From: Corynebacterium zhongnanshanii
Lineage (GTDB): Bacteria; Actinomycetota; Actinomycetes; Mycobacteriales; Mycobacteriaceae
Direction of reading: 5' to 3'
Assembly (NCBI RefSeq): GCF_014490575.1
Contig: NZ_CP061033.1
Span: 2,046,001-2,110,000, forward strand
Length of the DNA stretch: 64,000 nt
Shown: piece after piece, positions 26,705-43,653 of the stretch
Layout: every line of letters begins with the position of its first letter
Position numbering within the stretch: the stretch's first letter is position 1
The notes under the pieces: generated by a model
What the model was told of the DNA's origin: nothing
Databases searched by the model: none
What the model saw: the letters and a program-made list of their open reading frames with translations, nothing else
Position numbers and translations under genes: made by a program

Positions 26705-27521
26705 AAAATGCGGAGGGCAGCCTGGTTCGTCTCGTAGAAGCCCGCATTCTGGCAGAAAATATCTCTCCCCCAGAATAAGGATGCAAGATTATGACACCAA
26801 AGCTGGTCGAGTCGTGACACACTGCCCGGCAGTGAACACAGACAGCACAATGTGATGCGCGGGTAGTTGCACCGCTACCTGAAAACTTCGCCGACGAAAA
26901 CGCCAAGCTACGGCTCAAAAACCGGGATCTGCGGGACACCAACGAGTTATTGAAGGCTGCCTCGGCTTTTTCTCGCCTCAGTTCTCGGCCCACAACGTCG
27001 ACAAGGATCCAGTTCATTGATAAGCATCTGATAAGCATCAGAATCGCTTCACAGCCAGGTTCATTTGCTCGACGCTGAAGAAGCGCCGCCAAGGTGGATT
27101 CTGGCATGCGCTTCGTCGTGAAGGCACCGATATCGGCCGTGAGCAGACTGTCCATCTGATGCACCTAGCACAGCTAAAGGTAGCGCCCCTGTAACCACAC
27201 GTTCGTCTCACGGTTATGATCTGCGCCCTGACCTGATCATGCGTCAGTTCACGGCCGGGAAGCCGAATGCATTTGTGAGTGGCCGACATTACCTATGCTC
27301 GAACACGTCAAGGGATTCGTATACGCCGTTTTTGCCATTGATGTGTACTCCTGTCGAATTTTCGAGTGGGCGGTATCTGATTCGATGTCTACCGAGACGT
27401 TGCCGCTACAAACGCTGAACCATGCCATTGCCTGCGCTAGGGAAACGGCTGGTCTAATTCACCATTGATAACTACGAGCCGCAATACGTCAGCATCATCT
27501 TCAACCAGAGGTTTTCCTAAT
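26705..27521 (+). pseudogene. Degraded IS3-family transposase (OrfA and OrfB remnants)
   Basis: Pieces of an IS3-type OrfA/OrfB pair can be read in several frames. EGSLVRLVEARILAENIS is OrfA-like, and DENAKLRLKNRDLRDTNELL followed by KAASAFF is the OrfA C-terminus. In the OrfB integrase core, VADITYARTRQG is followed by YAVFAIDVYSCRIFEWAVSD and LNHAIACARETAGLIHH. Stops and frameshifts separate every piece, so the element is inactive. It marks the left edge of the island directly after the helicase gene. Confidence 0.75.
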
Positions 27522-27596
27522 ATGAAATTGTTGCCTCCACCGGCGAATTTTGACTGATGGGGCCGTCCACTGGTATTTCAGCACTTTTAATGACGG

Positions 27597-27674
27597 GTTC
27601 TTGGCAAAGTGCGTGCGGCAGCGCTGCCAACTAGGAGCAGGAAGCACTTGCCTAACAGCCGCTAGGATCATGAG
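27597..27674 (-). pseudogene. IS256-family transposase fragment
   Basis: About 26 codons on the minus strand read as an IS256 (mutator) core segment, including AAVRQVLPAPSWQRCRTHFA, which matches the family's conserved SWQRCRTH block. Nothing of the rest of the transposase adjoins it. Confidence 0.6.
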
Positions 27675-27758
27675 TCCAGCATGAATCTTGCACATGAAGC
27701 CCAGGCATGTTATATTCATTTAGTAAACATATTGATTTATTACAGGAACGTTCCTCAC

Positions 27759-28262
27759 TTGTCTAAGTTGCATAAGTTCTCTTTGTCGATTGCTGCCTCT
27801 ATTTTAGGTTTTGCACTACTGGCCCCTGTTGCGATGGCCGATTCTATCGGCCACTTCGAGTAATCTTACAGCAAAGCCGATACCCCCTCTTCCGCTAAGC
27901 AAATCGTTGAGGATGAAATTACTGGCGATGTTAATCACTTCGCAACCCAGACAATAATCCTTAAAAATGGAGTGAAAGCTACGGTAGAAGTTGATGTCGT
28001 AGCAGATTCTATCCGAGTTACGTCGGACAATGGCGAGAATTACCAATTTAAGCTCAGCGAACTAAAAAGTTATGTACAAAGTGCGGGCGCCGCAGAGTGA
28101 GTTGAAGCTTTAAGAAAGAAGCCTAACTCATGCCAGGTGGCAACAGGTACTGCCGATATAGCTCAACCTGCCCTGTGGGGAGCAGCCCTAGGTGGAGCTG
28201 CGGGTTCTGCTGCGGGAGCGGCAGCAAGCGCTTTCTGGTGGGGTGTAGGTTCTCCGTGTTAA
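27759..28262 (+). pseudogene. Decayed Sec-secreted small protein, possibly a bacteriocin precursor
   Basis: One continuous 167-codon frame from a TTG (AGGA about 12 bases upstream) is broken by an in-frame TAA at codon 35 (27861-27863) and a TGA at codon 114 (28098-28100). The reading starts with a clear signal peptide: MSKLHKF, a hydrophobic core, then LLAPVAMA. A polar middle domain of about 80 residues follows. The C-terminal part has one Cys, a Gly/Ala-rich hydrophobic stretch with ALWGAALGGAAG, and the end FWWGVGSPC. Such a signal peptide plus amphipathic glycine-rich tail is typical of secreted peptide toxins. The next gene encodes a small membrane protein, as an immunity gene would. 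I cannot name a family, and sequencing error could explain a stop. Confidence 0.5.
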
Positions 28263-28316
28263 CGGAAAGGTTCCTAGACGACACTAAAAGTCAAATTAAT
28301 TGTGGATTATATACCT

Positions 28317-28598
28317 ATGTCTAAAACAAAAATAAGGCACGTGTTACACCCAATGCTCGGCCTCTGGATCGCCTCCATAGTGCTCTTAATCAGCTCTGGA
28401 TCTCTGAAGTTTGATAATGGAGTGATACCTGCATTACTGATAGCCTCCGGGTCTACCGGCATTCTATCCGCACTATATGTTGATTATCTGGCGGGAAAAC
28501 ACGGTAAGAAAGAAAGCATTAATGCTACCCTCCTGACTATCACCGGAATTGAGGCGGAACCATGCTTCTACGTTTTGATTGGCTCGCTCACCATGTGA
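28317..28598 (+). CDS. Small membrane protein, possible immunity protein (93 aa)
   Basis: Not recognised as a family. It has 93 residues with two or three hydrophobic segments (about residues 13-30, 37-62 and a weaker C-terminal one) and a basic N-terminus. I choose the ATG at 28317 because the upstream alternative adds only five residues. It lies 55 bp after the broken secreted-peptide frame on the same strand, in similar AT-rich sequence. A role protecting the cell from that peptide is inference from position and topology only. The frame is intact, unlike its neighbours. Confidence 0.45.
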   Translation: MSKTKIRHVLHPMLGLWIASIVLLISSGSLKFDNGVIPALLIASGSTGILSALYVDYLAGKHGKKESINATLLTITGIEAEPCFYVLIGSLTM

Positions 28599-28652
28599 GC
28601 GATTGAAATGTGCGGCAACGCTAACTTGCAAGAGTGAAATTTCCCTAATTTA

Positions 28653-28700
28653 GTGGACGCCCGATTAATACGGATTTCCGTGTCCGTGAGAGAGGTTTAG
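28653..28700 (+). repeat. Stranded IS3-family terminal fragment
   Basis: The stretch beginning GTGGACGCCCGATTA is nearly identical to the minus-strand sequence at about 31207-31253, just upstream of the second IS3 OrfA relic. It is therefore an orphan end of the same IS type, cut off by the IS30 relic that follows. Confidence 0.6.
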
Positions 28701-28728
28701 ATTCTGGCGGCCATTGCAACAATGACGA

Positions 28729-30286
28729 CTAGTTGGACTTGATGCTACCTGTTTGTTTTAGCGCTTGGGCCATGACTTTGGCGGGAGTGATCCATCCGAG
28801 TGCTTTGCGCAGTGTGTGGTTGTGAATGTTGGCGATAATCTTAAGGTCTTCTGAACTATATGCCGACAGGTCGGTACTTTCGGGCAGATTGCGTCGTAGC
28901 CTGCCCTTGGTATTTTCGTTGGTTTCGCGCTCCCATGGTGAACCTGGATAGCAGAAGTAGATGGGCATGTCAGTGACCCTGGTAAAAGTGTTATGACCAG
29001 ACATTTCACTTTCTTGACCCCAGGTAATCGATGGCCAAATAGCCCGGTCCATGCGTGCCACTGTTGCTTCTAAAGCTGCCAGCACTTCATCGCTAGTATG
29101 ACGACCAGGAAGATGACCGAGGCCTGCAAACCGGCTGACACGCTCAACAAGAGTGATGACTGCTGAATGGTTGTCCTTACCCACAATCAGGTCACCTTCT
29201 TAGTGCTCTGGCGGGGTACGTTCCTCAACGTCGAGCGGCCGGTCATCGATGAGGACCATAGCGTCAACGAAACTCTGCTGAGCTGGATCGTTACTGCATG
29301 GTTCGCGCCTCTTCCGCTTTACCTGTCTGATGGCAGTGTCAGACCAAATTCCTTCAGCCACCCTTTGGAGTGCAGCTAGAAAGCGCCATAGATAGTTTCG
29401 TGTCTAATACTCATGTCCTTCTCATCTGAGTAATCGATCAGGAGCCGATGTGAGAATTGCTCCGATGACCATTGTGCTCGTAAACCATCGATGACATAAG
29501 TTTGTAACCGGTGGTTGGATACAAGCTTGGCTAGTTCGGGACACAACCGTCGGACGTATGCTTTCAACCGGACAGTTTCAGCCCGGTAGGGGCCGTCAGC
29601 ACTGTGATTGCGGGCCACTTCGCGTTGGATGAACGAGGCACTGTGCCCCAGGATCCACCCGATGTGATGAGACGAGGCGTTGTCGCGTAGCATCTCTGCG
29701 ATCACCACGAGCTCTTCAAAGCTGAGGTACCAGCGACTGATCGGCTTATACGGGTCTACGCCCCGGGGCAACGCTGGTGGCAGTAGGCGTCCAGGCTCGA
29801 TGACTTCAGTTCGTTCACGCAGGGCAGTCATCAGTCTGTTATACGTTGCTGCGTCACTACCCTGGGCAATGAATTCACGTCTCGAACCGCCCACCATCTT
29901 TACTCCCCGTTCGAAATCAGAAACAGCACCAGGGTCAAGACAAGCACCAGCTGCTCTAAACGCCTCCTGTGGGGACAGGCTTGCAAGCCGCAGCTGCAGA
30001 TAGTCCACTCGCCACTGGGTTTGCCGAACTCTGCGTTCATAGTGCTGAGTGTGACGTGGTCTTCAGCATCGCAGGCAATGGCGTAAGCCGCTGTGGGATT
30101 CAATCCACTTATTCCTGCTGTCCGGAAGACAGGCATACCTGCGGACACAAGCTTCACAAAGTCCCGAGCAGGCTGACTGCAACGGTCGACCGGCGGGTTG
30201 CGACGATATCGGACAACGCCACGGGCATGGCAGCAATTCAGCACGTGGTGATGGTTGCACCCCAACTGGCGTGCCGATGATCGCAC
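28729..30286 (-). pseudogene. Degraded IS30-family transposase
   Basis: Three minus-strand segments line up as one IS30 transposase. The N-terminal region (to about 29900) includes SARQLGCNHHHVL, and the middle region has ARNHSADGPYRAETVRLKAY and ends HETIYGAF. The C-terminal catalytic part (28729-29184) has GKDNHSAVITLVERVSRFAG and HNHTLRKALGWITPAKV. Between the last two, other frames still read VLIDDRPLDVEERTP and EGDLIVGKDNH. Frameshifts and in-frame stops make it non-functional. Confidence 0.8.
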
Positions 30287-30373
30287 ACTACGCCCACAAG
30301 CAAGTAAGGCAAGCAGCTACTGCTCGGCCTTTGACAAGGAATGAAACGGACCACGATTCTCAGACACCCCCTC

Positions 30374-30735
30374 TCCGGGTTAGTGCTGCAACGACCCTCT
30401 GAACCCAAGAGAAACCGGGAAATACACCGGCGCACCGATGTTGTGACCACCGTCCCTAACCGGGATGCTGTCGTCCGGCTGATTGGCGCTGTGCTGGCAG
30501 AACAGCAAGATGACTGGGTTCAGCACAAGCGCTACATGTCGCTGACCAGCCCGGCACACACCAGGGACACCAACATCACTGGCGTCATCGACAACCGACG
30601 TCCCAACGGGAAGTAGTCCGCAGCATGATCGCAGCCCACCATCGGGCCCGGTCCGGACCCTGACTCCATCCCTGATACTGTCCCGGATTCAGAAAGGACA
30701 GATACACCACTACCCCGGACTTGACCGATCTGCTG
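30374..30735 (+). pseudogene. IS256-family transposase C-terminal remnant with element end
   Basis: The plus strand reads NREIHRRTDVVTTVPNRDAV and RLIGAVLAEQQDDWVQHKRY, the conserved C-terminal block of IS256 transposases. It is followed by about 65 bp (30670-30735) that match the sequence at 32885-32942 after the larger IS256 relic, so the right element end is retained. The N-terminal 300 or more codons are gone. Confidence 0.75.
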
Positions 30736-31253
30736 ATCAAGCCCCTGGAGAAAACTGTGGCGCTTATCCTCACCTGCGTGCTTGGCTACTTGTTCTGCAG
30801 CCGACTTGTAGTACCCAGATCGGGACACTCCCAAAAGCCGTGCCATTGCCTTGATGCTGTAGATCGCCTTCTCCTGGAAGCATCAGTTCGAACTTTTCCG
30901 CTCACGTTGCTTCGCAGCGAAGAAGGCGGCTGCTTTTGACAAAAACTCATTATCCAGCTGAGACTCAGCCAATTCCCGGAGCGGCCTGGCGTTTTCCGCA
31001 CGCAGATCAGCAAGACTCCTATCACCATCAGAGCCCAGGCGTTCTCGCTCGTTTTTGACCTTTCTGCACACTGCACAGCAGCCCGGCAGACACGCCGATC
31101 TCTTCAACAACCCGGGTGATCGGCCTTTCAGACTCGATGACCAGCCGAGCTGCCTCCCGCCGGACCTCGGGAGTGTACTCCTTCCTCTGCTGCTTACTCA
31201 CAATGAACACCCTCTCCTACGGACACAAAAATCCGTACTAATCGGGCGTCCAC
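30725..31253 (-). pseudogene. Degraded IS3-family OrfA/OrfB
   Basis: On the minus strand, OrfA starts MFIVSKQQRKEYTPEVRREA with the helix-turn-helix segment ITRVVEEIGVSAGLL. It then shifts frame and continues as LRELAESQLDNEFLSKAAAF. OrfB starts at about 30846 with MARLLGVSRSGYYKSAAEQV and is truncated where it meets the IS256 remnant end. The element end at 31207-31253 has a second copy at 28653-28700. Confidence 0.75.
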
Positions 31254-31325
31254 CAAACGCGGGTGAACTCAATTTGCTTGGGAAGAGAATGAACAGGGAA
31301 AGGAACTACGGAACTTTGTTGTCTG

Positions 31326-31517
31326 CTAGGACTGCTTACCTTGCTTATAGAGGAAGTAAGATTGCACAACCATGAGAGCGAAAATGGCCCACAGGAGGCC
31401 AGTACTGTTACCTCCTACAGGAAACCAAGGGATTGCGCCGACCAGGGCGACAATGGCGAGGACAACTGAGAGGGCCAGCCAGAGGATGCGGAGCTTATTA
31501 TTTTGAAATTGGAACAT
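31326..31517 (-). CDS. Small hypothetical membrane protein (63 aa)
   Basis: Not recognised. A 63-residue product with two hydrophobic segments (about residues 9-28 and 37-55) and the end LYKQGKQS. I prefer the ATG at 31517 over a TTG 15 bp upstream; neither has a strong ribosome-binding site. A promoter-like pair (TTGACA, 16 bp, TAATGT) lies upstream on the same strand. It is one of the few intact frames in the IS-relic zone. The role is unknown. Confidence 0.4.
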   Translation of the reverse strand: MFQFQNNKLRILWLALSVVLAIVALVGAIPWFPVGGNSTGLLWAIFALMVVQSYFLYKQGKQS

Positions 31518-31640
31518 AGTAGTCGAGAACAATTCTTTTCGGGGGTACAGAATACGGGGACCGTACGTCGAGGCTACGCGTGTGCGAGGTACAGCCCCAC
31601 TGGTGATTTGAGAAATGCTCAGTAGTTATTTCACTTCTGA

Positions 31641-31668
31641 ACATTATCAGAGGAATGGGCTGTGTCAA
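31641..31668 (-). promoter_or_regulatory. Putative sigma-70-type promoter
   Basis: The minus strand reads TTGACA (31663-31668), a 16-bp spacer, then TAATGT (31641-31646). It points at the small membrane protein gene about 125 bp downstream. Confidence 0.35.
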
Positions 31669-31886
31669 GTCTTGTTGACAATGAACCTCTGATATTCGTT
31701 GGTGGAGCCTCGCTGTGCGGCGGAGGCAGAGCATGGCTGCAAGAAGTGGTTAATGGCACCCTTGGGGGCGAGACCGGTGTCCAGAGTTCTTGGATCTGCG
31801 CTACTCAGCGGGTTGCGTCCGCTAACGTGGTGCATCTGTATCCCATGGTAAGCCGCCCTCCGGCGTTCACAGGCGACCATCATAGG

Positions 31887-32942
31887 ATCCCACCGCCTAT
31901 CTCGAAGAGTTGCTCACCCAAGCCCCCGTCCTGATGTGCCAGATGCTTCGAGACTTCATCAACTAGGTCCTGTCGACCCAAGCCGACAGCATCTGTGGCG
32001 CTAACTACGCCACCGTCTCCCCTTAAGCGGCCCAACAGGTGCAACGGCTACCGAACCCGCTCGCTAGATTCCGGCCCGTACTATTACCTGTCTTGTGATG
32101 CGTTGACTACGAAAGTGCGTGAAGGTGGTCGTGTGGTGAACACCAGCGTGCGTGTTGCTACCGGCGTTAACAATGATGGCTACCGCGAACTTTTGGGTAT
32201 GCAGGTAGCCACATCAGGATCCGTGGAATCCTGGACAGGGTTCTTCTAAGACCTGAAAGCCCGTTGCCTGGGCAATGTGCACCTGGTGACCAGTGATGCC
32301 TACCTATGGATCCAAACTACTGTTGGGCACGTGCTTCTCACTGCTAGCTGGCAGCTCTGCCGCGCGCATGTCGCCAAGGACCTGTCATCAACAGCGTCGA
32401 AATGCTAGTGGACAACCCTGTCAGGAATGTTTCACTCCATCGTCCTCACTAAGCCAACGTGCAGGCTACCTGAGATTAGGCCAGGTAGGTCGTTGAATGC
32501 TTGTAACGACCGTTTCCCGGAGGTAGCAGACTCTCTGGAGGCGTCATTGGATGAGATCCTCGCATTCACACATGCGCCGAAAGTTGTGTAGGCAAAAATG
32601 TTGTCGAATAACCCCACAGAACGGCTGAACAGGAATATTCGCCGACGCGCTGACGTTGTGGGCATTTTCCCTCATCGGGATGCTGTTGTCCGGCTGGTTA
32701 GTGCCGTGGGGGCAGAACAGCATGATGACTATGCTCGACACAAGCGTTACGTGTCACTAGCTAGCTTGGAACACATCCGAAATCTCATAGCCTCCAACAC
32801 CATCAATACCAGCAAGACTGACGTCATCGAGGAAGTCACCTCATAAACTACAACCCCGCCCGGGGCGGACCCTAACCCCAGCCTTAACACTGTCCCGGAT
32901 TCAGGAAGGGCAGGAACACCACGCCCCGGACTTGCCCCATCT
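31887..32942 (+). pseudogene. IS256-family transposase with internal deletion, stops and frameshifts
   Basis: The N-terminal part reads DPTAYLEELLTQAPVLMCQM and later STQADSICGANYATVSP with in-frame stops. NGYRTRSLD is then joined directly to SGPYYYLSCDALTTKVREGG, which means roughly 100 codons between them are missing compared with the family. VATGVNNDGYRELLGMQVAT, a shifted LTASWQLCRAHVAKDL, and [20 protein letters not shown] follow, ending near 32846. The right element end (32885-32942) matches that of the remnant at 30.7 kb. It ends about 57 bp before the first lantibiotic precursor gene. Confidence 0.82.
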
Positions 32943-32948
32943 AATAAG

Positions 32949-32967
32949 TGAGGGTAGCCTTAGATTA
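32949..32967 (+). promoter_or_regulatory. DtxR-like iron box in the lantibiotic promoter region
   Basis: TGAGGGTAGCCTTAGATTA matches the DtxR/IdeR consensus TWAGGTWAGSCTWACCTWA at 15 of 19 positions, including an intact TAGCCTTA core. It lies 32-50 bp before the alpha precursor ATG, where a bound repressor would block transcription. The match was counted by eye. Confidence 0.5.
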
Positions 32968-32998
32968 CCTTTTACGTTTGAGTTCAGAGAGGATACCA

Positions 32999-33181
32999 AT
33001 GGTTAAAAACGCTGGAATTTTTGAAGAGATTTCCGACCAGTACGTACCTGAGGCTAACGCCGCTGGCCAAGGCTGGGGAACCCTAGTCACCTCGCTCAAC
33101 TGCTATGGCGCAAGCTGGGCGCTCGGCAACGAGGGCAACTTCTGCACCGGCACCATTGAGTGCCAGAAGACCTGCCAGTAA
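32999..33181 (+). CDS. lanA1: Two-peptide lantibiotic alpha precursor (LanA1)
   Basis: A 60-residue precursor. Residues 1-23 form an acidic leader ending in NAAG, and the predicted 37-residue core starts QGWGTLVTSL. The core ends CTGTIECQKTCQ, which contains the CTxTxEC lipid II-binding pattern of alpha peptides such as haloduracin alpha and lacticin 3147 A1. S39-W-A-L-G-N-E-G-N-F-C49 matches the spacing of the 11-residue ring in haloduracin alpha. Predicted rings are S39-C49, T50-C55 and T52-C59, plus an N-terminal ring from T31 or S32 to C35. AGAGAGGA precedes the ATG. The mature peptide should bind lipid II and block cell-wall synthesis together with the beta peptide. Ring assignments rest on analogy. 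Confidence 0.88.
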   Translation: MVKNAGIFEEISDQYVPEANAAGQGWGTLVTSLNCYGASWALGNEGNFCTGTIECQKTCQ

Positions 33182-33231
33182 AAACCGGCAAAGACCACCA
33201 AATCCACAATCGCAAGGGAAAGGCTTCCACC

Positions 33232-33432
33232 ATGCATAACTACTCCGCATCCAACGGCTTCATCTCTGACGAGGCTATGCTCCAGATCATCGACGCCAAC
33301 GATGCGTCCCTGTCCAACCAGGTTGCCGCTGGCACAACCTCCCCACTGTGTGTCGTCGGTGGCGCAGTCAGTGCTGCATCTGCGTACCTGGATGATGCAT
33401 GCCCAACCAGCGGCTGCACCCATTCCTGCTAA
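33232..33432 (+). CDS. lanA2: Two-peptide lantibiotic beta precursor (LanA2)
   Basis: A 66-residue precursor. The 34-residue leader contains FISDEAMLQIIDAND and ends QVAAG, and the predicted 32-residue core begins TTSPLC. The C-terminus CPTSGCTHSC matches the CPTTKCTxxC tail of beta peptides (haloduracin beta, lacticin 3147 A2), giving likely rings T59-C62 and T63-C66. C57 lacks a Ser/Thr four residues before it; S50, seven before, is the nearest candidate. C40 may close a ring with T35, T36 or S37. The ATG at 33232 has AAGGGAAAGG upstream. It lies 50 bp after lanA1. Beta peptides make pores after binding the alpha-lipid II complex. Confidence 0.88.
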   Translation: MHNYSASNGFISDEAMLQIIDANDASLSNQVAAGTTSPLCVVGGAVSAASAYLDDACPTSGCTHSC

Positions 33433-33499
33433 AGCAGTAGCCCAATTCCCCGCGGCAGTGCTCACACACGGCAGTGGGGCTTTCCTCATTTATATACCG
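33433..33499 (+). other. Possible attenuator between precursor and modification genes
   Basis: The 67-bp gap contains an imperfect inverted repeat (AGCCC near 33444 and GGGCT near 33477) followed by TTTCCTCATTT. A partial terminator here would make more precursor than enzyme, as is usual in lantibiotic operons. The structure is weak. Confidence 0.3.
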
Positions 33500-36472
33500 A
33501 TGACATTCCTTAAAAAAAGTATTTCTGTCGCCTCTAAACGCTTTATTAGCCAGTTGACCGATGATCACGCAGGTGAATTTCATGGGCTTTTCCCCCATTA
33601 TTTGCGACCTTTCCTTGAACAGGGAGCTTATTCCCTCGAGGCTTACGCTCGCGACACCGGACGTGAACTGGGCGAGAATATCATCTGCAATGCGCTACGC
33701 TTACTAGCACGCCGCCACAAGGACCTTGCGATCCGCAGTCTCATTACCCATTTCCAGTATCTGCGGGAAACTTCTACACAGAACGACAGCGCGTTCTCTA
33801 CCTCTTCGCAAGATGGAATTCCGTGGGACTATGCGGTGTACAACATAGACATTGAGCAGGGCTCGGCCCGCGACGACCTCTTTAGCCACGTACCTCTTCT
33901 AGATTCCCTGACCGCTACGTGCCAACAGCATTGGTTTGAGTATATCGTTCGCGTCCTAGACTCTGTGCATGCGGACTACTCGGAGCTACAGAAACATTTC
34001 CACGTCGGCGGAAAGCTACACGCCATCGAATTCGGCTTGGGTGATCCTCACCGTGGTGGCATATCCGTCGCGATCTGCCAGTGGGAAATTGGCGACAAGG
34101 TAGTGCTAAAGTTCACCGAACATACCCCGGCCGGTCTTGTGAGAGAGCTGCTTCAATCGCTCGACCCACATCAAGAGTTCTTTGGTCCCGTCCTCCCCTT
34201 TCAATGGAGCCCACCGGAGCGAGAACGCCAGTGGCAGCGCTATGTTGAGCAGGAGCAGTTCACTGCAGACCAGGCACGTGAGTACTTTCGCCGTTACGGT
34301 CGCTGCTCGGCTCTCATTCTCGCACTGGGCGGCAATGACTTTCATCGAGAAAACGTCATCAGCACAGTAGCTGGGCCAACATTCGTCGATACAGAAACGC
34401 TGACGAGTTTACCCTCGGCAACCTCGGAAACATCTGACAATATCTACGAAAAGACTGCCGCATACGAGTCCTACAGCGTTCTACGTACTCTGCTTTTCCC
34501 AGTGCAATTCGCAGGTTCCCCTGTGGCGGAGGAGCTTTCCGCTATTGGGGTCCCCACTAGAGCCGCTCGTTCGATTCAATCCATCACGATCTGTTCCCGC
34601 GGAACTAACGATATTCGGTTTGATGAGTCCGCGGTCACCGTGAAACCAACCAACAACACTGTGTGTGACGGTGCGGGCAATCAGTTCGATCCACGAGCTT
34701 TTCTCCCCAGCATCGTCGAAGGTTTCGCGGAGGCGTTCCTCCATCTGCAGCAGCATCGGGATGTTTTGCCGCAAACGCTCCGCAGCTGCCCTCCTTTTGG
34801 GATCCGCCATGTCCCTCGCCCCACCTGGATATATGCCAAGCTACTCGGAACTTCCACTCACCCCTCCCGTCTGGGCCATGAGGATGCGCGACAGCACACT
34901 CTTGAGCTGTTGCCGAATGTTGATCCCCAGCGCATGGGCGAAGATCTTTCCCGCACCATGCGTTGTGAAGAGATCGCTGCCCTGACACAACTAGATATTC
35001 CGTATTTCTGGATCGCTGCGGAGGGAACGGTATTCGGTCGTGATTCTGCTCGTCCTTTGGGCAGCTTTCCCAAAACCCCGGCCCAGTGTCTACAGCACTG
35101 GTGGGATAAGGTGCTGAATTCTGACGTGAGAATTCACATTCGCCGCATAAAGCTGTCTTTGTCTGCGGTGGGCAATGACCCGTATGAAAAAGCAGATATT
35201 GTCTACCGTCACGAGGATGTGTCTGTTCCTACTCCTTTGCCCGAGCATGTAACGGGTATTCAAAACGGTCAGACGAGCATCAGCTGGCTTACCACACATC
35301 AGATCAGTGGGAAAGTCCAGCTCAACCTCATTTCTCCATCCCTCTATGAGGGCGGGGGCGTACTGTTGAGCTTCTTAAGCGATCGACGCCAACTCGTCGA
35401 CACCACTACGAAATCTCATGTGGTGATGGACGCGCTCCGTGGAGCAATCCTGCATGATATGCCGGAGGCACCAGGTGATCTTCACGACATGCTCTATTCT
35501 GCCTTCGGAGGTATTCCGGGCGAGCTAGCAACGGAGATGGAACTTGCCGCAATTGGGATGACGGGCACCGAAAAGGGCGATCTGCGTTACCCGGAGGAAA
35601 TGCAGGTGCTGCTCACGCAGCTCCCTGATCTCCTAGAACGTTATGAGAACCCAGGATCGCAAGATTATCTCAATGGTCTCAGCGGAACCTTTACTGCAAT
35701 GAATCAATTCCGCGATCTGCTCAACCTCCAGAGTGTAGGAAAGCAATGGGCTGAGCGAACAGGAGAGATCCACACGCACCTCGAAAACGCTCTCTGCTCC
35801 ATGGAAAGCATGAGAGATGAGGCTTTGGGACTCGCGCATGGCCGCAGTGGTCAGGTTCTCGGGATTGTCGAGCTACTGGACCTACTCATGCGGGCAGGCG
35901 TAGAGATCCCCGAAAACTTCTTGAACCGAGCACTGGCGTTGAGCACGAGCCTCCCAGATAGGCTAGCCGAAGATAAGGCCATGATAGATCTATCTGCTGC
36001 CCACTCGTGGTGCAAGGGACGCGCCGGCATGGTGATGGCGCTCAGCCGAGTGATGAGTATTGCGTCGGAATGGGAAAAGAAAACCGCCATCGCAGGACTA
36101 AAAATATCTGGAGGATGGATCGATGACTGGGCAGAGCACAATGCTCGGTTCCTACTGCCGACCGCACAACAATTCTGCCGTAGCGGTGACATTTCTTTCT
36201 GCCATGGAGCTGCGGGGGGAGTGTTGAACTGGCACATCATCGGCGCAGCGACGGGCAGCCAAGCGTCCACGGAACTCGCAGAAACGTACTACACGGAGTT
36301 TCAGAAAGTGGCCGCAACTAACGGTTGGCGTACAGGACTGTACTCTTCGCCCCATGCCGAAGGTTTCTTTGTCGGGAGAGCAGGATGGGACCTAGCCACC
36401 GCAGCATTCGAAGGCCACGCCACCTTTATTCCGCGAATGATCAGTCTCAGCGTAGGAAGGCGGTGCGCATGA
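33500..36472 (+). CDS. lanM: Class II lanthipeptide synthetase LanM (first copy)
   Basis: A 990-residue bifunctional enzyme that phosphorylates and eliminates Ser/Thr in a precursor core, then adds Cys thiols to form lanthionine rings. The N-terminal dehydratase domain has HFHVGGKLHAIEFGLGDPHR and the kinase-like catalytic GGNDFHRENVIS (about residue 276), followed by FVDTETL. The C-terminal LanC-like cyclase domain has zinc ligands in HSWCKGRAG (about 835) and SFCHGAAGG (about 900). The frame is open upstream through lanA2, but the ATG at 33500 gives normal LanM length; its ribosome-binding site is weak. Its TGA overlaps the lanT ATG. Which precursor it modifies cannot be decided from sequence. 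Confidence 0.92.
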   Translation: MTFLKKSISVASKRFISQLTDDHAGEFHGLFPHYLRPFLEQGAYSLEAYARDTGRELGENIICNALRLLARRHKDLAIRSLITHFQYLRETSTQNDSAFSTSSQDGIPWDYAVYNIDIEQGSARDDLFSHVPLLDSLTATCQQHWFEYIVRVLDSVHADYSELQKHFHVGGKLHAIEFGLGDPHRGGISVAICQWEIGDKVVLKFTEHTPAGLVRELLQSLDPHQEFFGPVLPFQWSPPERERQWQRYVEQEQFTADQAREYFRRYGRCSALILALGGNDFHRENVISTVAGPTFVDTETLTSLPSATSETSDNIYEKTAAYESYSVLRTLLFPVQFAGSPVAEELSAIGVPTRAARSIQSITICSRGTNDIRFDESAVTVKPTNNTVCDGAGNQFDPRAFLPSIVEGFAEAFLHLQQHRDVLPQTLRSCPPFGIRHVPRPTWIYAKLLGTSTHPSRLGHEDARQHTLELLPNVDPQRMGEDLSRTMRCEEIAALTQLDIPYFWIAAEGTVFGRDSARPLGSFPKTPAQCLQHWWDKVLNSDVRIHIRRIKLSLSAVGNDPYEKADIVYRHEDVSVPTPLPEHVTGIQNGQTSISWLTTHQISGKVQLNLISPSLYEGGGVLLSFLSDRRQLVDTTTKSHVVMDALRGAILHDMPEAPGDLHDMLYSAFGGIPGELATEMELAAIGMTGTEKGDLRYPEEMQVLLTQLPDLLERYENPGSQDYLNGLSGTFTAMNQFRDLLNLQSVGKQWAERTGEIHTHLENALCSMESMRDEALGLAHGRSGQVLGIVELLDLLMRAGVEIPENFLNRALALSTSLPDRLAEDKAMIDLSAAHSWCKGRAGMVMALSRVMSIASEWEKKTAIAGLKISGGWIDDWAEHNARFLLPTAQQFCRSGDISFCHGAAGGVLNWHIIGAATGSQASTELAETYYTEFQKVAATNGWRTGLYSSPHAEGFFVGRAGWDLATAAFEGHATFIPRMISLSVGRRCA

Positions 36473-38670
36473 CACACGCACCCCAGAGCACTTCAACGTT
36501 CAAGCCGGCACGGCGGAAGCCTCCAGTGATCCTACAGCTCGCGCAAAGCGAATGTGGACTGTGCTCTGCCGCGATGATCCTTGAATATTGGGGTTATCGT
36601 GGCGCCATCTACGAAATGCGACGCAACACCGATCCAGGAAGAGACGGGTTGGGTCTCAAGGATGTTGCATCAATGCTAACTGAGCGCGGCATCAACGTGA
36701 ACTTCGTGCAGGCTAACTTCCAGGGACTGCAACGCGTAAATGAGCCATTCATCGCTTTTTGGAAGGGCTATCACCTAGTGCTGGTGGAGAAGCTCAACGA
36801 ACAGCGAGCGATCATCCTAGACCCAGCTTCTGGCAGGGCGCGGATTTCCGCCGAAGAATTCGAGGAAAGCTTCTCCGGGCACGCCCTGCTCTGCACACCG
36901 ACGAAGCACTTTGCGCCTCAGCGGGAAAGGGGCTACTCCATTCGCACCATCTGGCGTGAGCTAACGACTCGCTCCTATATGGGAAGTGGTGCGAAAATTC
37001 TACTGCTGTCTCTATTGCTGTATGTCTTCACATTGGGAATCCCCATCGTGACCAAGGAATTGGTCGACCGGAAGAATGAGTTGATTGACGGTTACTCAAC
37101 CGTAGCGATCGCATTAGTACTCATATTGCCTTTCGTTATCTATTCGCTCTTCGGGATCCTCCGCACGCGAATCCTGGCGACGATGATTGCGCATGTCGGT
37201 GAAGACCTTATGGGCGGTGTGTTCAAAAAGTTGTTGAGCCTGCCTTATCGATTTTTTGCCTCGCGGCCCAACGGTGAGCTTATGATGCGCCTGAGCAGTG
37301 TCAATCAGTTGCGCGACCTGGTTTCCAACCAAATCACCGCGGTGTTGCTTGACGTCGGCGTAGTGATATTCATCGTGGGATACTTGGTGTTCGCCATTCC
37401 GTGCCTCTCCATCGTCGCTATTGGCCTCAGCGCGATCATGGTGCTACTCACCGTGGGGACGTGGTCACAGGTTCAACGTGTAACTGATGAGGAAATCCGT
37501 GCATTGGGCAAGTCCACGGGTACGCAGATGGAGGCCATTACGGCCATCAGCTCTGTGAAAACCACGGGGATGGCACCGAGTTTCTACACCAGATGGCGCA
37601 AGGATTATCAGGGTGCACTGCACTCCGGGCGGCGCCGCATGCTGGTCCAAGGCACCGTAGCCACGATCATCGGGGCAATCCAGATGTTCGGCCCATTCCT
37701 TGTGCTGGCTGTAGGCATCAAGCTGCTCTTGAAGGGCACGGGAACCTTGGGTGAAGTCGTTGCCGCACAGTCCTTGGCCACGATGCTGCTGGCTTCCGTC
37801 AGCTCACTCAGTTTGGCCATCAGTCAGTTTGTAAAGGCCCAGGTGCAGATCGCACGGCTCATCGACGTCATGACGCACGAGTCCGATAACACTTGGGGAA
37901 GCGAAGTGTGCGAACTGTCCGGCCAGATGACAGTGGACCAGCTGTCCTTTACTTACCCCGGAGCGCAGCTGCCTGCCCTCAGCAATATTAACTTCTCCGT
38001 GAGCCCTGGGGAGAAGGTGGCCGTCGTGGGCAGGACAGGCTCTGGGAAATCCACCCTGGCCAAGGTGCTCGTGGGGCTGTTTCCCCCCTCGACGGGCTCC
38101 ATCACGCTGGATGGTCGACACAGCTCCGAATTGTCAGAAGAATCCTTTCGCAAGGCTGTGGCGTACGTGCCTCAGGACATCCAACTGAGTAATCGGCAGA
38201 TTGCGGAAAACATTGACTTCACCGGGGGTACCCCGGATCTGGAGTTGGTGCGTACCGCCGCTCAGATCGCTCAGATCTCTGGAACGATCGAGTCCATGCC
38301 TTTGGGGTATCACACAGAAATTCAGGAGATGGGCGCGAATATCTCTGGTGGTCAGCGGCAACGCATCGCAATTGCCCGTGCGATCGCTAGGCAACCAAAA
38401 ATGATTGTCCTCGATGAAGCAACCTCTGCTTTGGACAACATGACAGAGAGGAACGTGGCACAATCCCTCGCAGAGCTTAACTCGGCACAGATAGTGATCG
38501 CACACCGGACGTCCACGATCCGATCGGCGGACAGAATCCTGGTTCTCAGGGAAGGTCACCTGGTTCAGGAGGGCACATTCAGCGAATTGATGGCCGAGGA
38601 CGGTGAATTCAGAGAACTGATGAGCAGCACGAAAGATCTCAATGCGACTCGTCAAGAGATGCAACGATGA
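36469..38670 (+). CDS. lanT: Lantibiotic exporter with C39 leader peptidase (LanT)
   Basis: A 733-residue ABC exporter that cuts the leader and exports the mature peptide. The N-terminal C39 papain-like domain has the catalytic Cys in QLAQSECGLCSAAMI (about residues 23-37), His in GYHLVLVEK (about 104) and Asp in ILDPASGR. Six membrane helices follow (about 165-430). The ATPase domain has Walker A GRTGSGKST (about 520), signature SGGQRQRIA and Walker B MIVLDEATSALD. Both precursor leaders end AAG, an acceptable variant of the double-glycine site. The start overlaps the LanM stop, and the stop overlaps a 29-codon ORF. Confidence 0.94.
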   Translation: MTHAPQSTSTFKPARRKPPVILQLAQSECGLCSAAMILEYWGYRGAIYEMRRNTDPGRDGLGLKDVASMLTERGINVNFVQANFQGLQRVNEPFIAFWKGYHLVLVEKLNEQRAIILDPASGRARISAEEFEESFSGHALLCTPTKHFAPQRERGYSIRTIWRELTTRSYMGSGAKILLLSLLLYVFTLGIPIVTKELVDRKNELIDGYSTVAIALVLILPFVIYSLFGILRTRILATMIAHVGEDLMGGVFKKLLSLPYRFFASRPNGELMMRLSSVNQLRDLVSNQITAVLLDVGVVIFIVGYLVFAIPCLSIVAIGLSAIMVLLTVGTWSQVQRVTDEEIRALGKSTGTQMEAITAISSVKTTGMAPSFYTRWRKDYQGALHSGRRRMLVQGTVATIIGAIQMFGPFLVLAVGIKLLLKGTGTLGEVVAAQSLATMLLASVSSLSLAISQFVKAQVQIARLIDVMTHESDNTWGSEVCELSGQMTVDQLSFTYPGAQLPALSNINFSVSPGEKVAVVGRTGSGKSTLAKVLVGLFPPSTGSITLDGRHSSELSEESFRKAVAYVPQDIQLSNRQIAENIDFTGGTPDLELVRTAAQIAQISGTIESMPLGYHTEIQEMGANISGGQRQRIAIARAIARQPKMIVLDEATSALDNMTERNVAQSLAELNSAQIVIAHRTSTIRSADRILVLREGHLVQEGTFSELMAEDGEFRELMSSTKDLNATRQEMQR

Positions 38671-38756
38671 CAGAAAAAGCATGGGGTAGCCGACGTCCCC
38701 ACAAGCTATTAATCACAGTCAACGACACAAAGTATAGAGAAAACGACAGAAAATGA
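38667..38756 (+). CDS. 29-residue ORF coupled to both lanT and lanF
   Basis: Not recognised. The frame starts at an ATG that overlaps the lanT stop as ATGA, and its TGA overlaps the lanF ATG in the same way, so ribosomes could move from lanT through this ORF into lanF. The product starts MTEKAWGSRRPHKLLI and ends NDTKYRENDRK. It is basic, with no membrane segment and no Cys. It could be a real small protein, a translational relay for lanF, or the vestige of a gene lost by deletion. Confidence 0.5.
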   Translation: MTEKAWGSRRPHKLLITVNDTKYRENDRK

Positions 38757-39487
38757 TTGAAGTAAAAAACTTAGAAAAGACCCTCGGTAAGGAGAAGATT
38801 CTGCGAGGAGTGTCCTTTAGCGCTCCCGCAGGTAAAATCACCGGCTTCCTGGGCCCCAACGGATCAGGCAAGACCACCACATTCAAGGTCATGCTCAACC
38901 TCATGAGGCCGGACAACGCTGACGCAACCGTCACATTCGCTGGTGAAAAACTCAGCAGCTTCCCCCTGTCCCTCACTCATGTGGGAACATCCATGGACAT
39001 CAACGCCATGGACAAGCACCGCAAGGGGATCGATCACCTCCGTTCTCTCGCACCGCTTGCCCAATGCTCTGAGGCTCGGGTTAATGAACTCATGGAAGAG
39101 TTCGGCCTAGGACACGCGAAAAACAAACGTTCCGGTTCATATTCCATGGGCATGAAGCAGCGCCTTTCACTAGCCACTGCCCTGCTGGGTGACCCAGATT
39201 TCCTCGTTCTCGACGAACCCACCAATGGTCTAGATCCCGAGGGCATCGCGTGGATTCGCAATTACCTTCGCGCGCTCGCTGGCCACGGCAAGACAGTGGT
39301 GATCTCCTCGCACCTGCTCAACGAGGCGCAAAAGTTCATCGACTATGTAGTAATCATTAAACAGGGAAGAATCGCTTATGAGGGAGACATCTCGCAGTTG
39401 CATGCACTCTGCGAACAGCGCACCGGCAGAAAAGTGACTGACTTGGAAGAAGCTTACCGGGTCGTCACGGCTAAGGAGGAGAACTAA
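38753..39487 (+). CDS. lanF: Lantibiotic immunity ABC transporter ATPase (LanF)
   Basis: A 244-residue ATPase expected to power removal of the lantibiotic from the producer membrane. Walker A is GPNGSGKTTT (about residue 33), the signature region is SYSMGMKQRLSLA, and Walker B is FLVLDEPTNGLDPEG, followed by the switch His in ISSHLL. The order ATPase then a single six-helix permease matches LanFE-type immunity pumps. It is coupled upstream through the 29-codon ORF and followed 3 bp later by the permease gene. Confidence 0.85.
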   Translation: MIEVKNLEKTLGKEKILRGVSFSAPAGKITGFLGPNGSGKTTTFKVMLNLMRPDNADATVTFAGEKLSSFPLSLTHVGTSMDINAMDKHRKGIDHLRSLAPLAQCSEARVNELMEEFGLGHAKNKRSGSYSMGMKQRLSLATALLGDPDFLVLDEPTNGLDPEGIAWIRNYLRALAGHGKTVVISSHLLNEAQKFIDYVVIIKQGRIAYEGDISQLHALCEQRTGRKVTDLEEAYRVVTAKEEN

Positions 39488-39489
39488 AC

Positions 39490-40263
39490 GTGTTGGGACC
39501 ACAACTGATATCCGAGTGGAAGAAGGCCACAACCAGCATCACATGGTGGGCCGTAGGCGCTCTCATTGTCACGGCTAACGTCCTGGTCACGAGCTTCTTC
39601 ACCTTTGTGGGGCTTAACGTGGAGCGCTCACCCATCGATGCGACCGCCCCAGATTCCGTGCGTATGTTTCTCACGGTTGGCGTAGCATTTACCTTCATTT
39701 TGCCTCTCATTTTGGGTATGCTCATTGTCAATCTCGAGTTTTATAACAACACCATCATTTATTCCTTCCTGGGGAATCAACGCCGCGGTAGTCTCTATCT
39801 AGCCAAGCTCGTGACCTGCGCGGTGTCGGCCATGTTGTTCTCTGTCCTATTTGCCCTAATGTCCTTGGCAGTTGTTGCAGGGCTGCTGTCCAGTTCATCG
39901 AAACCTGCAACCGTCTTCACAGGGCAAACGTGGGGTACGCTGCTGAGCATCGTGGTGATCAGCACCCTTTTAGGGGTCATTGGAGGTGCCTTAGGCGCCT
40001 TGGTAACTAAGCCGATGTTGGCTATTGTTCTCATTATTTTGTGGAGCCAGGTTATTGAGCCAATTCTTCGGATCGCCTCCCCTACCAAGGCACAGGGGTA
40101 TCTTCCTTCCTCCTTAATCGACGCTAGCCTAGGCGGTGGTTTCCTAGGACAGATGTTCAACAGTGAGCAATTATCACAGCCACTAGCGTTAGGTATTCTT
40201 GCCGCGGTGACCGTGGTTCTCGGCATTCTCGGTGGTGTGAAGTATGCGCACCAAGAGGTATAA
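39490..40263 (+). CDS. lanE: Lantibiotic immunity ABC transporter permease (LanE/G-like)
   Basis: A 257-residue membrane protein with six hydrophobic segments: about residues 17-40, 57-80, 103-130, 147-170, 173-192 and 230-250. It is probably the partner of the preceding ATPase. The GTG at 39490 has AAGGAGGAG upstream. The fold pattern is that of ABC-2/LanE-type permeases. Only one permease gene is present, so the pump would be LanF2E2. It lies between the ATPase gene and the second LanM gene, with 5 bp to the next start. Confidence 0.8.
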   Translation: MLGPQLISEWKKATTSITWWAVGALIVTANVLVTSFFTFVGLNVERSPIDATAPDSVRMFLTVGVAFTFILPLILGMLIVNLEFYNNTIIYSFLGNQRRGSLYLAKLVTCAVSAMLFSVLFALMSLAVVAGLLSSSSKPATVFTGQTWGTLLSIVVISTLLGVIGGALGALVTKPMLAIVLIILWSQVIEPILRIASPTKAQGYLPSSLIDASLGGGFLGQMFNSEQLSQPLALGILAAVTVVLGILGGVKYAHQEV

Positions 40264-40268
40264 GTCCG

Positions 40269-43200
40269 GTGCAGAAGCAAAAGGAGCCGATCGACACCGC
40301 CATTGCCACGTTTCTGCCAGAGCTGCAGAACGAAACGAAGCGACAAACTGTGCGGGAGCTTATTGAGGAATTTGCTGAGTGTACGCCGTGGTACCGCTAC
40401 CAGTACACGCAATCGACTAACGCTACGTCACTTGAGCAGGATCGCAGAGATCCTCAAGTACAGCCGTCATTAGCGGATTTGATGCGCGCCATCCGCAACA
40501 TGAACATTTCTGAGCATCCCTCGCAGGACGATCCTCGCTTTATCGAGTGGTTCTTAGAGCTGACGCGGTCGTGGACAGCGCTCCTCAATAGCCCTTGGCA
40601 AGCGGCACTGCGATTTCCCCCTTCCCAGCGGTTGACGCACAGCATTGAAATGGACTTGCTACAGGTCATCGAGACTCAGCTCTTTCGCTGCGTGGCGGAT
40701 AGTCTTGAGAAGCGCCGGATGGCCGGAGACCTATCCGGCGTGTCCAGCGCCGAGCGTTTTGATGATTTCTATCGGTGGTTGAGCTCCGCCGAGGGATGCG
40801 AACACTTTGAGGAAAATTACGGTGGTCAGGTTGTTCAAGCTTTCCATCAACTGCGATTCCGCTGTGATGCTTGGTGTGAACTGCTTGTTCGTCTGAATAT
40901 AGATCTCGACCAAATAAATGCGCACTTTTTCGCTGGCGTGGACCTTCGTTCGTTATTACCACAGCTACAGGTTCAGATGGGCGCCGGAGATTCACACTGT
41001 CGTGGCCGAGCCGTTGCGATCGTGAACCTCGGCGATCATCGTTTTGTGTATAAGCCGCGTGATTTGAGTGTTGACCAGTCACTCAAGTTCTTTTTTGATG
41101 AACTGCGCGAGTGGACAGGCATCCAGGTATCGGTTCCTTCGGTTATCGTCGCGCGGGGTTACGGCTGGGCGGAATTTGTTACTGGCGCTAGTGGAGATGT
41201 GGATTTTCAGCACTATGGGCGGGCTCTAGGTTTCCTCGCGAGCATAGAGTTTCTCGCCGGGGGCATTGATTTCCACTACGAGAACGTTGTGGGCACCGCT
41301 GACTCTGGAGTATCTATTATTGACGCAGAAACTTGCGTCGGTGCCAGCCCGGTGAATAAAAAAACCTATGCCTCAGGATCGGGCTCCATGGTGGGAGCAC
41401 AGAAAGTCTTCCATTCTGTCATCAGCACCGGATTGCTGCCACTTCCCCAGGTTGTTCCGGGCCGTATCGGCATCATTGATGTTGGCGCAACAGGTATCAC
41501 GGAGGGGGAGACCACGTCTCCCTTTAAGTCTTTGCTTGCCAAGAACCCTGGCTCCGATCTGATGCATATCGCTTTTGAGAATCTCCCGTATCGTTCAGAG
41601 AACAGCAATCCTCAGCCACGGACCACGGTGGCGGGTGTCGTGGAATTCCGTGACCAGATCGTCGGAGGAGTGCGGGAAGGACTAGAGTTCGCAAAGGCTA
41701 ATAAGGAAGAACTCTGTGGCTTGTTCGAGCGCGCATTTTCGGGACAGAGTTTCCGCTTCATCAACACCCCCACGCAGACCTACAGCCAACTTTTGCGGAT
41801 GGTTACCAGTCCTGGGGTGGTAAATGATCCAGTGGCGCATGTTGCAGTCCTGAGCCGCTGCGAGATGTTTAGTGACCGAGAAAAATCCGCCGCAGCCTTC
41901 GAGGTTGAACAGATGCTCGACGGGGACGTCCCATATTTTCAGATCTCCTTTGGAGATAATTGCCTCTACGGGATGGAAGGAGAGCCCCTCATCGACGGCT
42001 TTTTCGAAGGCTCTCCCAAGGAAACCATCTTTCGCCGTATTCACGAGCTAGATGACGAATCGATCAACGAGCAAGTGGATCTATGCATGGCTGCTTTCGC
42101 TCGATCCCTGCCAGTTGGGGCAGAAGGAACTCCCGCGTTGGGCGAGGCTCCAGAGTGTTCCGTGGATGTGGACGTCGCTTTACAAACAGGAGCCGAGCTT
42201 ATTCTCGCCCGTGGCTGCCGCTCTGACAACGACCGCCAACCCAGCACATTCTGGGGTCCACAGATCTCCGTGGAGGATTCCACTCAGTGGACACTGGGAA
42301 CGGCAGGATACGACCTCTACGGAGGAAGTCCCGGGGTTGCCCTCGCACTTTCGGCGTCTGAGCGTCGATTGCGCACCGGAAAATATGGTGAGTTTGCAGA
42401 GACAGTCTTTGGCCCTATCTCTCATCAAATCCTTGATGACCTTATCAACGATGGAACCTATGGCATCGGTGGTTACATGGGAGTTGCCGGAACTCTGTGG
42501 GCAGCCGTCTGGGACAGGCGCCTGCGAGGCCTTAATTACGGCGATATTGCCGTAGAGAGCCTGAATAAACTCAGCCAGAATATAGAGGGAAAGACTTCTG
42601 CCGATTTCGTGGTGGGTCAATCTGGTGCCCTCGCCGTCGCAGTAAATCTCGCACGGATGTGCTCAGATATTGGCATTGATGTCTCCGGAATCATGGAGAC
42701 AATCGTTTCCTACAGTCTGCCGGTCTTGGAAAAAGACTTCCGAGAAGGTTGGATAGGAACGAGTGAGTCCACTCCCTACTCAGGATTCGCCCACGGCCTC
42801 GCGGGCAGCATGGCCAGTATCGCCGCCGCCACAACAGTTCTTTCTCCTCAGTCCTCACTGAAGGCACAAGCAGAGAAAGTCGTTCAGGAAATGATCGATG
42901 CCCTGGAGGGTGTGGTAGACAACACGGGGGCAGTTACGCGTTCGAAGACCGATCAAAGAAAAGACGCGGCATGGTGCCACGGTTCCCCTGGAGTCCTTCT
43001 AGGCTTCACGATCGCTTGGGAAAATGGATTTCGAACAGACCCGGAGGTTCTCCACAATCTAGCCCAATATGTCCGTCGGCGTGGCGTCGGTAATAATTCA
43101 ACGGTATGCCATGGAGACCTAGGGTCACTGCGTGTTCTGAAGCGGTACGCAGAGTTAGTGGACGATGAGGCACTGGCGGCGTCGATACACAAAGAGATCG

Positions 43201-43361
43201 TGAACCGCTCAAAATACATCGCAGTAAGGAAAAGGACTGATTACCAGGACAAATATTCCTCCACGGACTCCCTCATGCTCGGACGAGCGGGGGCCATCCT
43301 CACGCTACTCCACGAGCTCGATCCACGAGAATACCCGGACGTCACAAGCCTAGGAATATAA
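40269..43361 (+). CDS. lanM: Class II lanthipeptide synthetase LanM (second copy)
   Basis: A 1030-residue LanM from a GTG start. The dehydratase domain has the activation and catalytic segments [18 protein letters not shown] and [12 protein letters not shown] (about residue 331), followed by IIDAETCVG. The cyclase domain has the zinc ligands in AAWCHGSPG (about 901) and TVCHGDLGS (about 946), and [15 protein letters not shown] is also typical. By eye it differs clearly from the first LanM, with only motif-level similarity. That fits the rule that each two-peptide lantibiotic precursor has its own LanM. It is the last gene of the operon. Confidence 0.92.
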
Positions 43362-43619
43362 AGACAAACGCCTTGCATCACATTGCGATTCACGCAGGCG
43401 GCGAAGTTGCGAAGCAATTATCGTCAGAACCAACAAGGGAGCCGCCGTCATCATCACGGCAAACAACAATGACCCACTCAATACCCGCATCTTCGACCCA
43501 GTGACTCGTGAGCTTCGCGAGAAGAAGTTCGTGAAGATCCGCGTCCCCGGGGGTGCTTCTGCAACCATAAGGAGCGAATACCACCGGTCAACACGCGAAA
43601 GATTCACCTCTAAAATCAT
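43350..43619 (-). CDS. Doubtful small membrane protein (89 aa)
   Basis: Not recognised. A minus-strand frame with one good hydrophobic segment (about residues 48-68) followed by basic [15 protein letters not shown] lies just upstream of an ATG at 43619 and a GTG at 43622. The opposite strand also has an open frame with natural-looking composition but no start codon, so the coding strand is uncertain. It overlaps the end of the second LanM gene by 12 bp. Confidence 0.25.
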
Positions 43620-43653
43620 CACACTTCCCCACCGTTGACGTTATAGTCGCCGT

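Follow-up and report, generated by a model that had tools for sequence, protein, structure and literature searches.

The window analysed here, a stretch of 64,000 bases (bases 2046001-2110000 of the single-contig, 2,206,897-base genome of Corynebacterium zhongnanshanii), carries a compact 10.4-kb cluster of eight genes that resembles the gene sets of two-peptide class II lantibiotics (Table 1). All eight frames are open and all lie on the forward strand. They comprise two precursor genes (lanA1 and lanA2), genes for two lanthionine synthetase homologues of the LanM type (LanM-1 and LanM-2), an exporter with its own leader peptidase (LanT), a 29-codon frame (orf29), and the two subunits, LanF and LanE, of an ATP-binding cassette (ABC) pump. 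A first-pass annotation made from the letters alone had described a complete and intact set in one orientation; every gene that it named was found, with family matches gene by gene. Its picture of junctions that overlap by 4 bases or leave only a few bases between genes applies to the five junctions from lanM-1 onwards (-4, -4, -4, +2 and +5 bases) and not to the first two, as lanA1 and lanA2 are separated by 50 bases and lanA2 and lanM-1 by 67. Across the whole genome only two LANC_like matches were found (E up to 0.001), both inside the cluster. We consider the cluster real and intact, and probably also functional.

Table 1 Features of the lantibiotic-type cluster, its surroundings and related loci (window positions unless another locus is named)
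Feature	Locus	Position	Strand	Basis or remark
lanA1, alpha-type precursor, 60 aa (amino acids)	window	32999..33181	+	NF000539 above cut-off; relatives
lanA2, beta-type precursor, 66 aa	window	33232..33432	+	NF038161 just under cut-off; relatives
lanM-1, lanthionine synthetase homologue, 990 aa	window	33500..36472	+	DUF4135, LANC_like; tree
lanT, exporter with C39 leader peptidase, 733 aa	window	36469..38670	+	Pfam domains, motifs
orf29, 29-codon frame	window	38667..38756	+	4-base overlap with lanT and with lanF
lanF, ABC ATPase of likely self-protection pump	window	38753..39487	+	ABC_tran
lanE, membrane subunit of likely self-protection pump	window	39490..40263	+	weak ABC2_membrane_4
lanM-2, lanthionine synthetase homologue, 1030 aa	window	40269..43361	+	TIGR03897, DUF4135, LANC_like; tree
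Low-GC island	window	26535..43653	no strand	MrfA-type helicase gene on one side, secreted-lipase-like gene on the other
Mutator-family transposase, C-terminal fragment, directly upstream of cluster	window	32598..32846	+	Transposase_mut 47.7 bits, profile 333-377/379
Adjoining A1, M1 and M2 fragments, cluster remnant, C. urogenitale DSM 108747	L038	8330-9206	minus	
Membrane-protein frame	L040	4458-4646		
Membrane-protein frame	L041	4455-4616 (oriented)		
Membrane-protein frame	L042	4506-4685 (oriented)		
Membrane-protein frame	L043	4695-4862		
Membrane-protein frame	L044	4750-4917		

LanM-2 matches the NCBIfam LanM family TIGR03897 at 414 bits (cut-off 304) and the Pfam domains DUF4135 (213 bits) and LANC_like (132 bits) above their cut-offs, and LanM-1 also exceeds the Pfam cut-offs for both domains (219 and 46.6 bits). 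The only solved structures matched by both (E up to 0.001) are those of LicM2 (6st5) and CylM (5dzt). Dehydratase motifs and all three zinc ligands are present in both synthetases, in the series GDxH, Lys, DFHxEN, DxET, RxxxxPT, WC(K/H)G and CHG, a choice of catalytic residues that follows the CylM structure, and the Lys of each aligns with those of LicM2 and CylM. Seven aligned relatives of LanM-1 (85, 81, 78, 58, 46, 31 and 28% identical) retain all the motif residues; searches with LanM-1 as a single protein against genome contigs and with LanM-2 against viral contigs gave no result. LanT joins a Peptidase_C39 domain (103 bits, residues 19-146) to ABC_membrane (106 bits) and ABC_tran (120 bits) domains and presents the QSECGLC, Walker A and ISGGQ motifs. 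LanF matches ABC_tran at 88.7 bits, and its gene lies only 2 bases from that of LanE.

LanA1 matches the NCBIfam plantaricin C family NF000539 above its cut-off (34 bits, cut-off 29) and Pfam Lantibiotic_a at 22.6 bits, below the cut-off of 27. Its relatives include one of 95% identity, also of 60 residues, one of 72% identity and a broken copy in C. urogenitale, while the relatives of LanA2 are 82, 76 and 59% identical. In both precursors and in these relatives the residues AAG precede the core, and cleavage after them would release an alpha core, QGWGTLVTSLNCYGASWALGNEGNFCTGTIECQKTCQ, and a beta core, TTSPLCVVGGAVSAASAYLDDACPTSGCTHSC. The calculated monoisotopic masses of these cores are 3939.73 Da (alpha) and 3043.30 Da (beta) if unmodified, and 3813.66 and 2881.21 Da if fully dehydrated, with up to seven water molecules lost from the alpha core and up to nine from the beta core. 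The alpha core holds CTGTIEC, that is, the CTxTxEC motif, which we take to be the mersacidin-like lipid II motif; the beta core ends in CPTSGCTHSC and so fits the pattern CPTxxCTxxC common to lacticin A2. We compared three alpha and four beta cores, those of the window included (the broken LanA1 relative, P0003, was left out and the final residue of P0002 trimmed). Each core has four Cys and every one is invariant, as are the Ser/Thr at alpha positions 5, 8, 9, 16, 27 and 29 and beta positions 1, 2, 3, 13, 16, 25 and 29; those at alpha 4, 6, 11 and 35 and at beta 26 and 31 are lost in some cores. This pattern fits a predicted layout with alpha rings T27-C32, T29-C36, S16-C26 and one of T5/T8/S9-C12, and beta rings T25-C28, T29-C32, S13 or S16-C23 and one of T1/T2/S3-C6. 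The Ser/Thr of three predicted alpha rings and of the last two beta rings are thus invariant, whereas T35 of the alpha core and S26 and S31 of the beta core are variable. T35 falls within the predicted C-terminal ring of the alpha peptide; in haloduracin, a Ser in the C-terminal ring escapes dehydration (PMC2727956).

Taken together, these features suggest that the cluster makes, exports and protects against a two-peptide class II lantibiotic, a reading to which we give a probability of roughly 0.88. The catalytic, export, antibiotic and immunity steps that we infer would run as follows: a separate LanM would dehydrate and cyclise each precursor, the C39 transporter would cleave the modified peptides at AAG and export them, and LanF-LanE would clear them from the membrane of the producer. 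Several observations weigh against this view. At the level of protein families, LanM-1 stays just below the cut-off of the NCBIfam LanM family (292.6 bits against 304), and LanA2 falls short of that of the LchA2/BrtA2 family NF038161 (23.5 against 26). The best NCBIfam family of LanF, the lantibiotic protection ABC ATPase TIGR03740, is matched at 175 bits, below its cut-off of 309.75, and LanE shows a weak match to the ABC-2 permease domain ABC2_membrane_4 (20.1 bits, cut-off 27). In an alignment with the related loci described below, the Lys of LanM-1 lies two columns off and the last-position LanMs of those loci carry Arg where LanM-2 has Lys. The predicted cut follows AG in both precursors, against the typical G(G/A/S) (PMC2727956). 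Around the genes, no site upstream of lanA1 is conspicuous as a sigma-70-like promoter (6 sites in 12 kb, against 6.9 in shuffled sequence), with nothing just upstream of it on the forward strand, and neither a regulator nor a LanI gene was recognised among the cluster proteins scanned. A transcription attenuator between lanA2 and lanM-1 was also considered and rejected: a hairpin is present, but 36 of 200 shuffled sequences form one equally stable (z -0.92).

Among 242 Corynebacterium genomes searched, relatives of LanM-1 occur in 9 and of LanM-2 in 11, the window's own genome counted in each, and LanA2 was matched only in the window's own genome. We read the corresponding regions in nine of the ten other genomes with a LanM match (G191 was left out). 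Five of them (G175, G177, G198, G109 and G128) present the order A-A-M-T-F-E-M in a single orientation; the genomes with such sister clusters include Corynebacterium sp. ACRQK, Corynebacterium sp. ACRPH, the metagenome-assembled genome (MAG) S30M_Sa_12 and C. phocae CCUG 38205T (G128), whose contig stops within the last LanM. E was assigned in these loci by its position between F and the last LanM, since it matched the window's LanE only in G109, and weakly. The first-pass annotation had treated the gene order, orf29 included, as differing from that of lacticin 3147 and haloduracin. That distinction did not survive comparison, given these five genomes and the A1-A2-M-T-M order of lacticin 3147, and orf29 is not conserved where this could be checked. 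A functional role for orf29 was indeed judged unlikely: the five sister loci leave no room for a counterpart, because T and F overlap there by 4 bases (three loci) or are separated by 6 and 18 bases, and in genome G173, where lanT is broken, the frame has 19 codons and does not reach lanF. It is likely a spacer or a translational-coupling frame.

The sister clusters are not close copies of that in the window. LanM-1 is 20% identical to one sister first-position LanM (no row of our first tree exceeds 19%), and LanM-2 is 21-23% identical to four sister last-position LanMs. Their cores are mostly of the LGNxGxxCTxTxECMPSCN and CPTTKC type, unlike those of the window, and all five contain, among or after the precursors or before the first LanM, a frame for a membrane protein of 53-62 residues that the window lacks at that place; we regard this protein as a candidate immunity protein. 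In C. phocae, the alpha gene is apparently flanked by two beta-type precursor genes (L044 4566-4733 and 5178-5333). On a separate contig (L047), the MAG behind G198 carries T, F and one more LanM, and a LanM with 26% identity to the corynebacterial first-position LanM is encoded in a Rothia MAG (L055).

In the wider family, LanA1 has matches in 11 of 301 genomes (E up to 0.1), one of them the window's own. The best three of the other ten were re-checked: G297 and G328 proved to carry clusters and belong to another genus of the family, and G375 had neither precursors nor LanMs. G297 (L089 1400-11413) encodes an alpha precursor, a beta precursor and two LanMs in the order A-A-M-T-M, with a lacticin-like alpha core, CTTNTFTLSDFLGNDGGWCTLTKESQNNCQ. 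G328 (L090) has two LanMs and a place matching LanA1 in the order A-M-T-M, the beta gene having been read out in G297 only. In both, LanT is 35% identical to that of the window, no F-E pair was matched in the interval from T to the second LanM, unlike in the window, and the LanM order is that of lacticin. A further enzyme gene follows the cluster in G297; its product resembles a luciferase-type monooxygenase such as that of birimositide.

These clusters bear on which synthetase serves which peptide. In lacticin 3147, M1 presumably modifies the alpha peptide and M2 the beta peptide, and the other tree references were labelled alpha or beta by their adjoining precursor. As the order A1-A2-M-T-...-M mirrors that of lacticin 3147, an intact cluster might simply follow the same rule by position, its first LanM acting on the alpha peptide and its last on the beta peptide. 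The phylogenetic evidence speaks against this. The first three trees leaned toward a swap without settling it. The final tree has 18 rows, with G297 and without the LanMs of G328; like the third, it leaves out L041, the partial last LanM of L044, L046 and L047, all of which were in the first tree (L045 is in none). It resolves two groups. One (support 97/98) unites LanM-1 and the first-position LanMs of four sister clusters with lacticin M2 and G297's second LanM; the other (96/98) unites LanM-2 and the last-position LanMs of three sister clusters with lacticin M1 and G297's first LanM. Sister first- and last-position LanMs thus side with the window's first and last, respectively. Forcing LanM-1 to join lacticin M1 and G297's first LanM was rejected (p value of the approximately unbiased test, p-AU, 0.015), as was forcing LanM-2 to join lacticin M2 and G297's second LanM (p-AU 0.009). 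The same held for LanM-1 forced with alpha-type LanMs in the second (p-AU 0.0011) and third (0.0015) trees and for LanM-2 forced with beta-type LanMs in the third (0.0018). Pairwise scores agree: the first LanM of G297 is nearer to the window's last (218 bits) than to its first (80), and its second LanM is nearer to the window's first (127 bits) than to its last (83-88).

We therefore find it likely that the beta peptide is modified by the first LanM and the alpha peptide by the last, because the tree groups the window's first synthetase with the last of lacticin 3147, and vice versa; inclusion of G297 raised the odds of this reversed pairing. The swap of LanM positions relative to lacticin 3147 is, on sequence comparison, well supported, and pairing by position appears improbable. 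Some results favour the positional scheme nevertheless. Long branches were flagged in each tree, the beta group does not take in the beta-labelled references from B. velezensis and S. epidermidis, and a group made up solely of LanM-1, lacticin M2 and G297's second LanM is absent from the best tree (p-AU 0.13). A profile-based assignment of the LanMs put four of five first-position LanMs on the beta side, that of L040 on the alpha side, and all four last-position LanMs on the alpha side; this test was discarded because its own control failed for three of three beta references, a failure that also counts against the swap.

A different alternative, about as improbable as pairing by position, takes the cluster for a silent or decaying remnant whose frames remain open but are not expressed, or in which a point change has killed an enzyme. 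The island that contains the cluster has a guanine-cytosine (GC) content of 0.537, against 0.622 in the left flank and 0.621 in the right one and 0.594-0.642 in 53 stretches of cluster length outside it, and its left part consists of transposase remnants (frames matching HTH_38, rve and Transposase_mut). Given this low GC content and these upstream remnants, the region looks like an acquired island. Inside it, two 47-base segments (28649-28695 and 31211-31257), 2.5 kb apart and 87% complementary, form an inverted repeat that probably represents the ends of an old insertion sequence element. In favour of a remnant, broken transposases adjoin the cluster, no promoter-like site stands out upstream of lanA1, and two relatives have clearly decayed copies. 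In the 20 kb read from C. urogenitale DSM 108747 (G231), only the start of lanA1, 85 residues of the first LanM and the last 176 residues of the second persist. In G173, which has no match to LanM-1, lanT and lanM-2 lie in broken pieces. However, all eight frames are open in the window, the motif residues are retained in both LanMs, and relatives of the precursors and of LanM-1 in other assemblies have similar lengths, all of which weighs against a remnant.

In G173, the F (244 codons) and E (257 codons) frames remain open (L039 10204-11711), at 89% and 81% identity to those of the window, and might represent an immunity pair left without its antibiotic. Retention as a shield stays a suggestion only, because the omega values of F (0.14) and E (0.27) are like those of the broken T pieces (0.22; broken M2 pieces, 0.41); these values do not single out selection as what kept the pair, and what the sequence shows is that both frames are open. 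The third alternative, two independent single-peptide lanthipeptides or signals rather than a synergistic pair, could appeal to class II systems in which alpha-like peptides act alone, such as mersacidin (PMC2727956), but it is very improbable given that alpha and beta types occur together with two LanMs in the window, the five corynebacterial loci, G297 and lacticin 3147. Returning to a two-peptide lantibiotic, we propose more tentatively, at somewhat less than even odds, a wider scenario: the cluster would belong to a corynebacterial branch of its own with reversed synthetase order, the cores of the window would be undescribed, and in a relative only F-E would have been retained, to shield it from neighbouring producers.

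Corynebacteria commonly live on skin, in the nose and on animal mucosa. The complete cluster and its new cores offer a concrete product to make. Together with the five sister loci, the lacticin-ordered clusters and the decayed copies, it forms a small natural series on synthetase pairing and on the movement and loss of antibiotic and immunity genes. The suggestion that the product may be new has held up so far: the search of the precursors against sequence collections returned no described lantibiotic with the same cores, and no description of a corynebacterial two-peptide lantibiotic was found among the matches listed in the open-access literature (subscription papers lay outside this search). 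Six lanthipeptide clusters have been counted in respiratory Corynebacterium (PMC12188740), and a screen for lanC genes flagged C. lipophiloflavum as carrying a potential lantibiotic cluster (PMC3091789). Corynebacterium counts among the known producers of specialized metabolites, in passages that name no corynebacterial lantibiotic (PMC8549736), corynaridin from C. lactis is a linaridin (PMC9927463), and elsewhere Corynebacterium serves as an indicator (PMC7248182). Two-component clusters have been predicted in Streptomyces (PMC3951391), and vagococcin T is another two-peptide lantibiotic (PMC9431498). Some Actinobacteria have lichenicidin-type alpha precursors accompanied by their own beta family (PMC7268733); the word Corynebacterium does not occur in the main text of that paper, and the five sister loci may be of the kind that it describes.

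Among characterised systems, lacticin 3147 (plasmid pMRC01) shares with the window two dissimilar precursors, two LanMs, a C39 exporter and an F-E pump. Its order is A1-A2-M-T-M followed by a dehydrogenase gene, and the window shows the same A1-A2-M-T-M series except that F-E stands ahead of the final LanM, whereas lacticin 3147 has F-E in a divergent operon. The beta core starts with TT and ends in CPTxxCTxxC as in lacticin A2, and the alpha core shares the GNxGxxCTxTxEC end of lacticin A1; over the aligned C-terminal part, 13 of 28 alpha and 13 of 29 beta residues are identical. A LanJ-type dehydrogenase, present after M2 in pMRC01, was not found among the eight proteins scanned, which included that of the secreted-lipase-like gene after lanM-2; on these proteins the cluster does not fit the lacticin 3147 subgroup with LanJ-made D-alanine. 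Likened by description, lichenicidin, haloduracin and thusin are of the same type, and lichenicidin and thusin combine alpha and beta peptides, two LanMs, a transporter and ABC immunity genes (PMC2727956, PMC4949975), the counterpart of the last in the window being its likely self-protection pump; in this comparison, no separate LanP protease was found among the cluster proteins scanned.

In the plasmid collection, LanA2 had no match and the sole alpha match to LanA1 was the peptide of S. epidermidis plasmid SAP106A, with 17 of 30 identities over the last 30 residues. This uncharacterised two-LanM cluster shares CYGxSxALGNxGxxCTxTxECQxxC with the window's alpha peptide, whereas its beta core is only 10/32 identical to the window's. 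Its beta-type gene and one LanM precede the record origin and its alpha gene and the other LanM follow it (L060 8235-11553, L058 2120-5658); it has been given as a single precursor with one LanM (PMC3951391). Among actinobacterial two-component lantibiotics, likened here by description, roseocin and birimositide come from Streptomyces, the latter with a lacticin-like alpha peptide (PMC7268733, PMC10676316) and a luciferase-like monooxygenase. Roseocin relies on one LanM for both precursors (PMC10027976), so the window, with two, falls outside the roseocin family. The cluster of C. zhongnanshanii is thus of a kind already known, that of lacticin 3147, haloduracin and lichenicidin, with cores that are new within the collections and papers searched.

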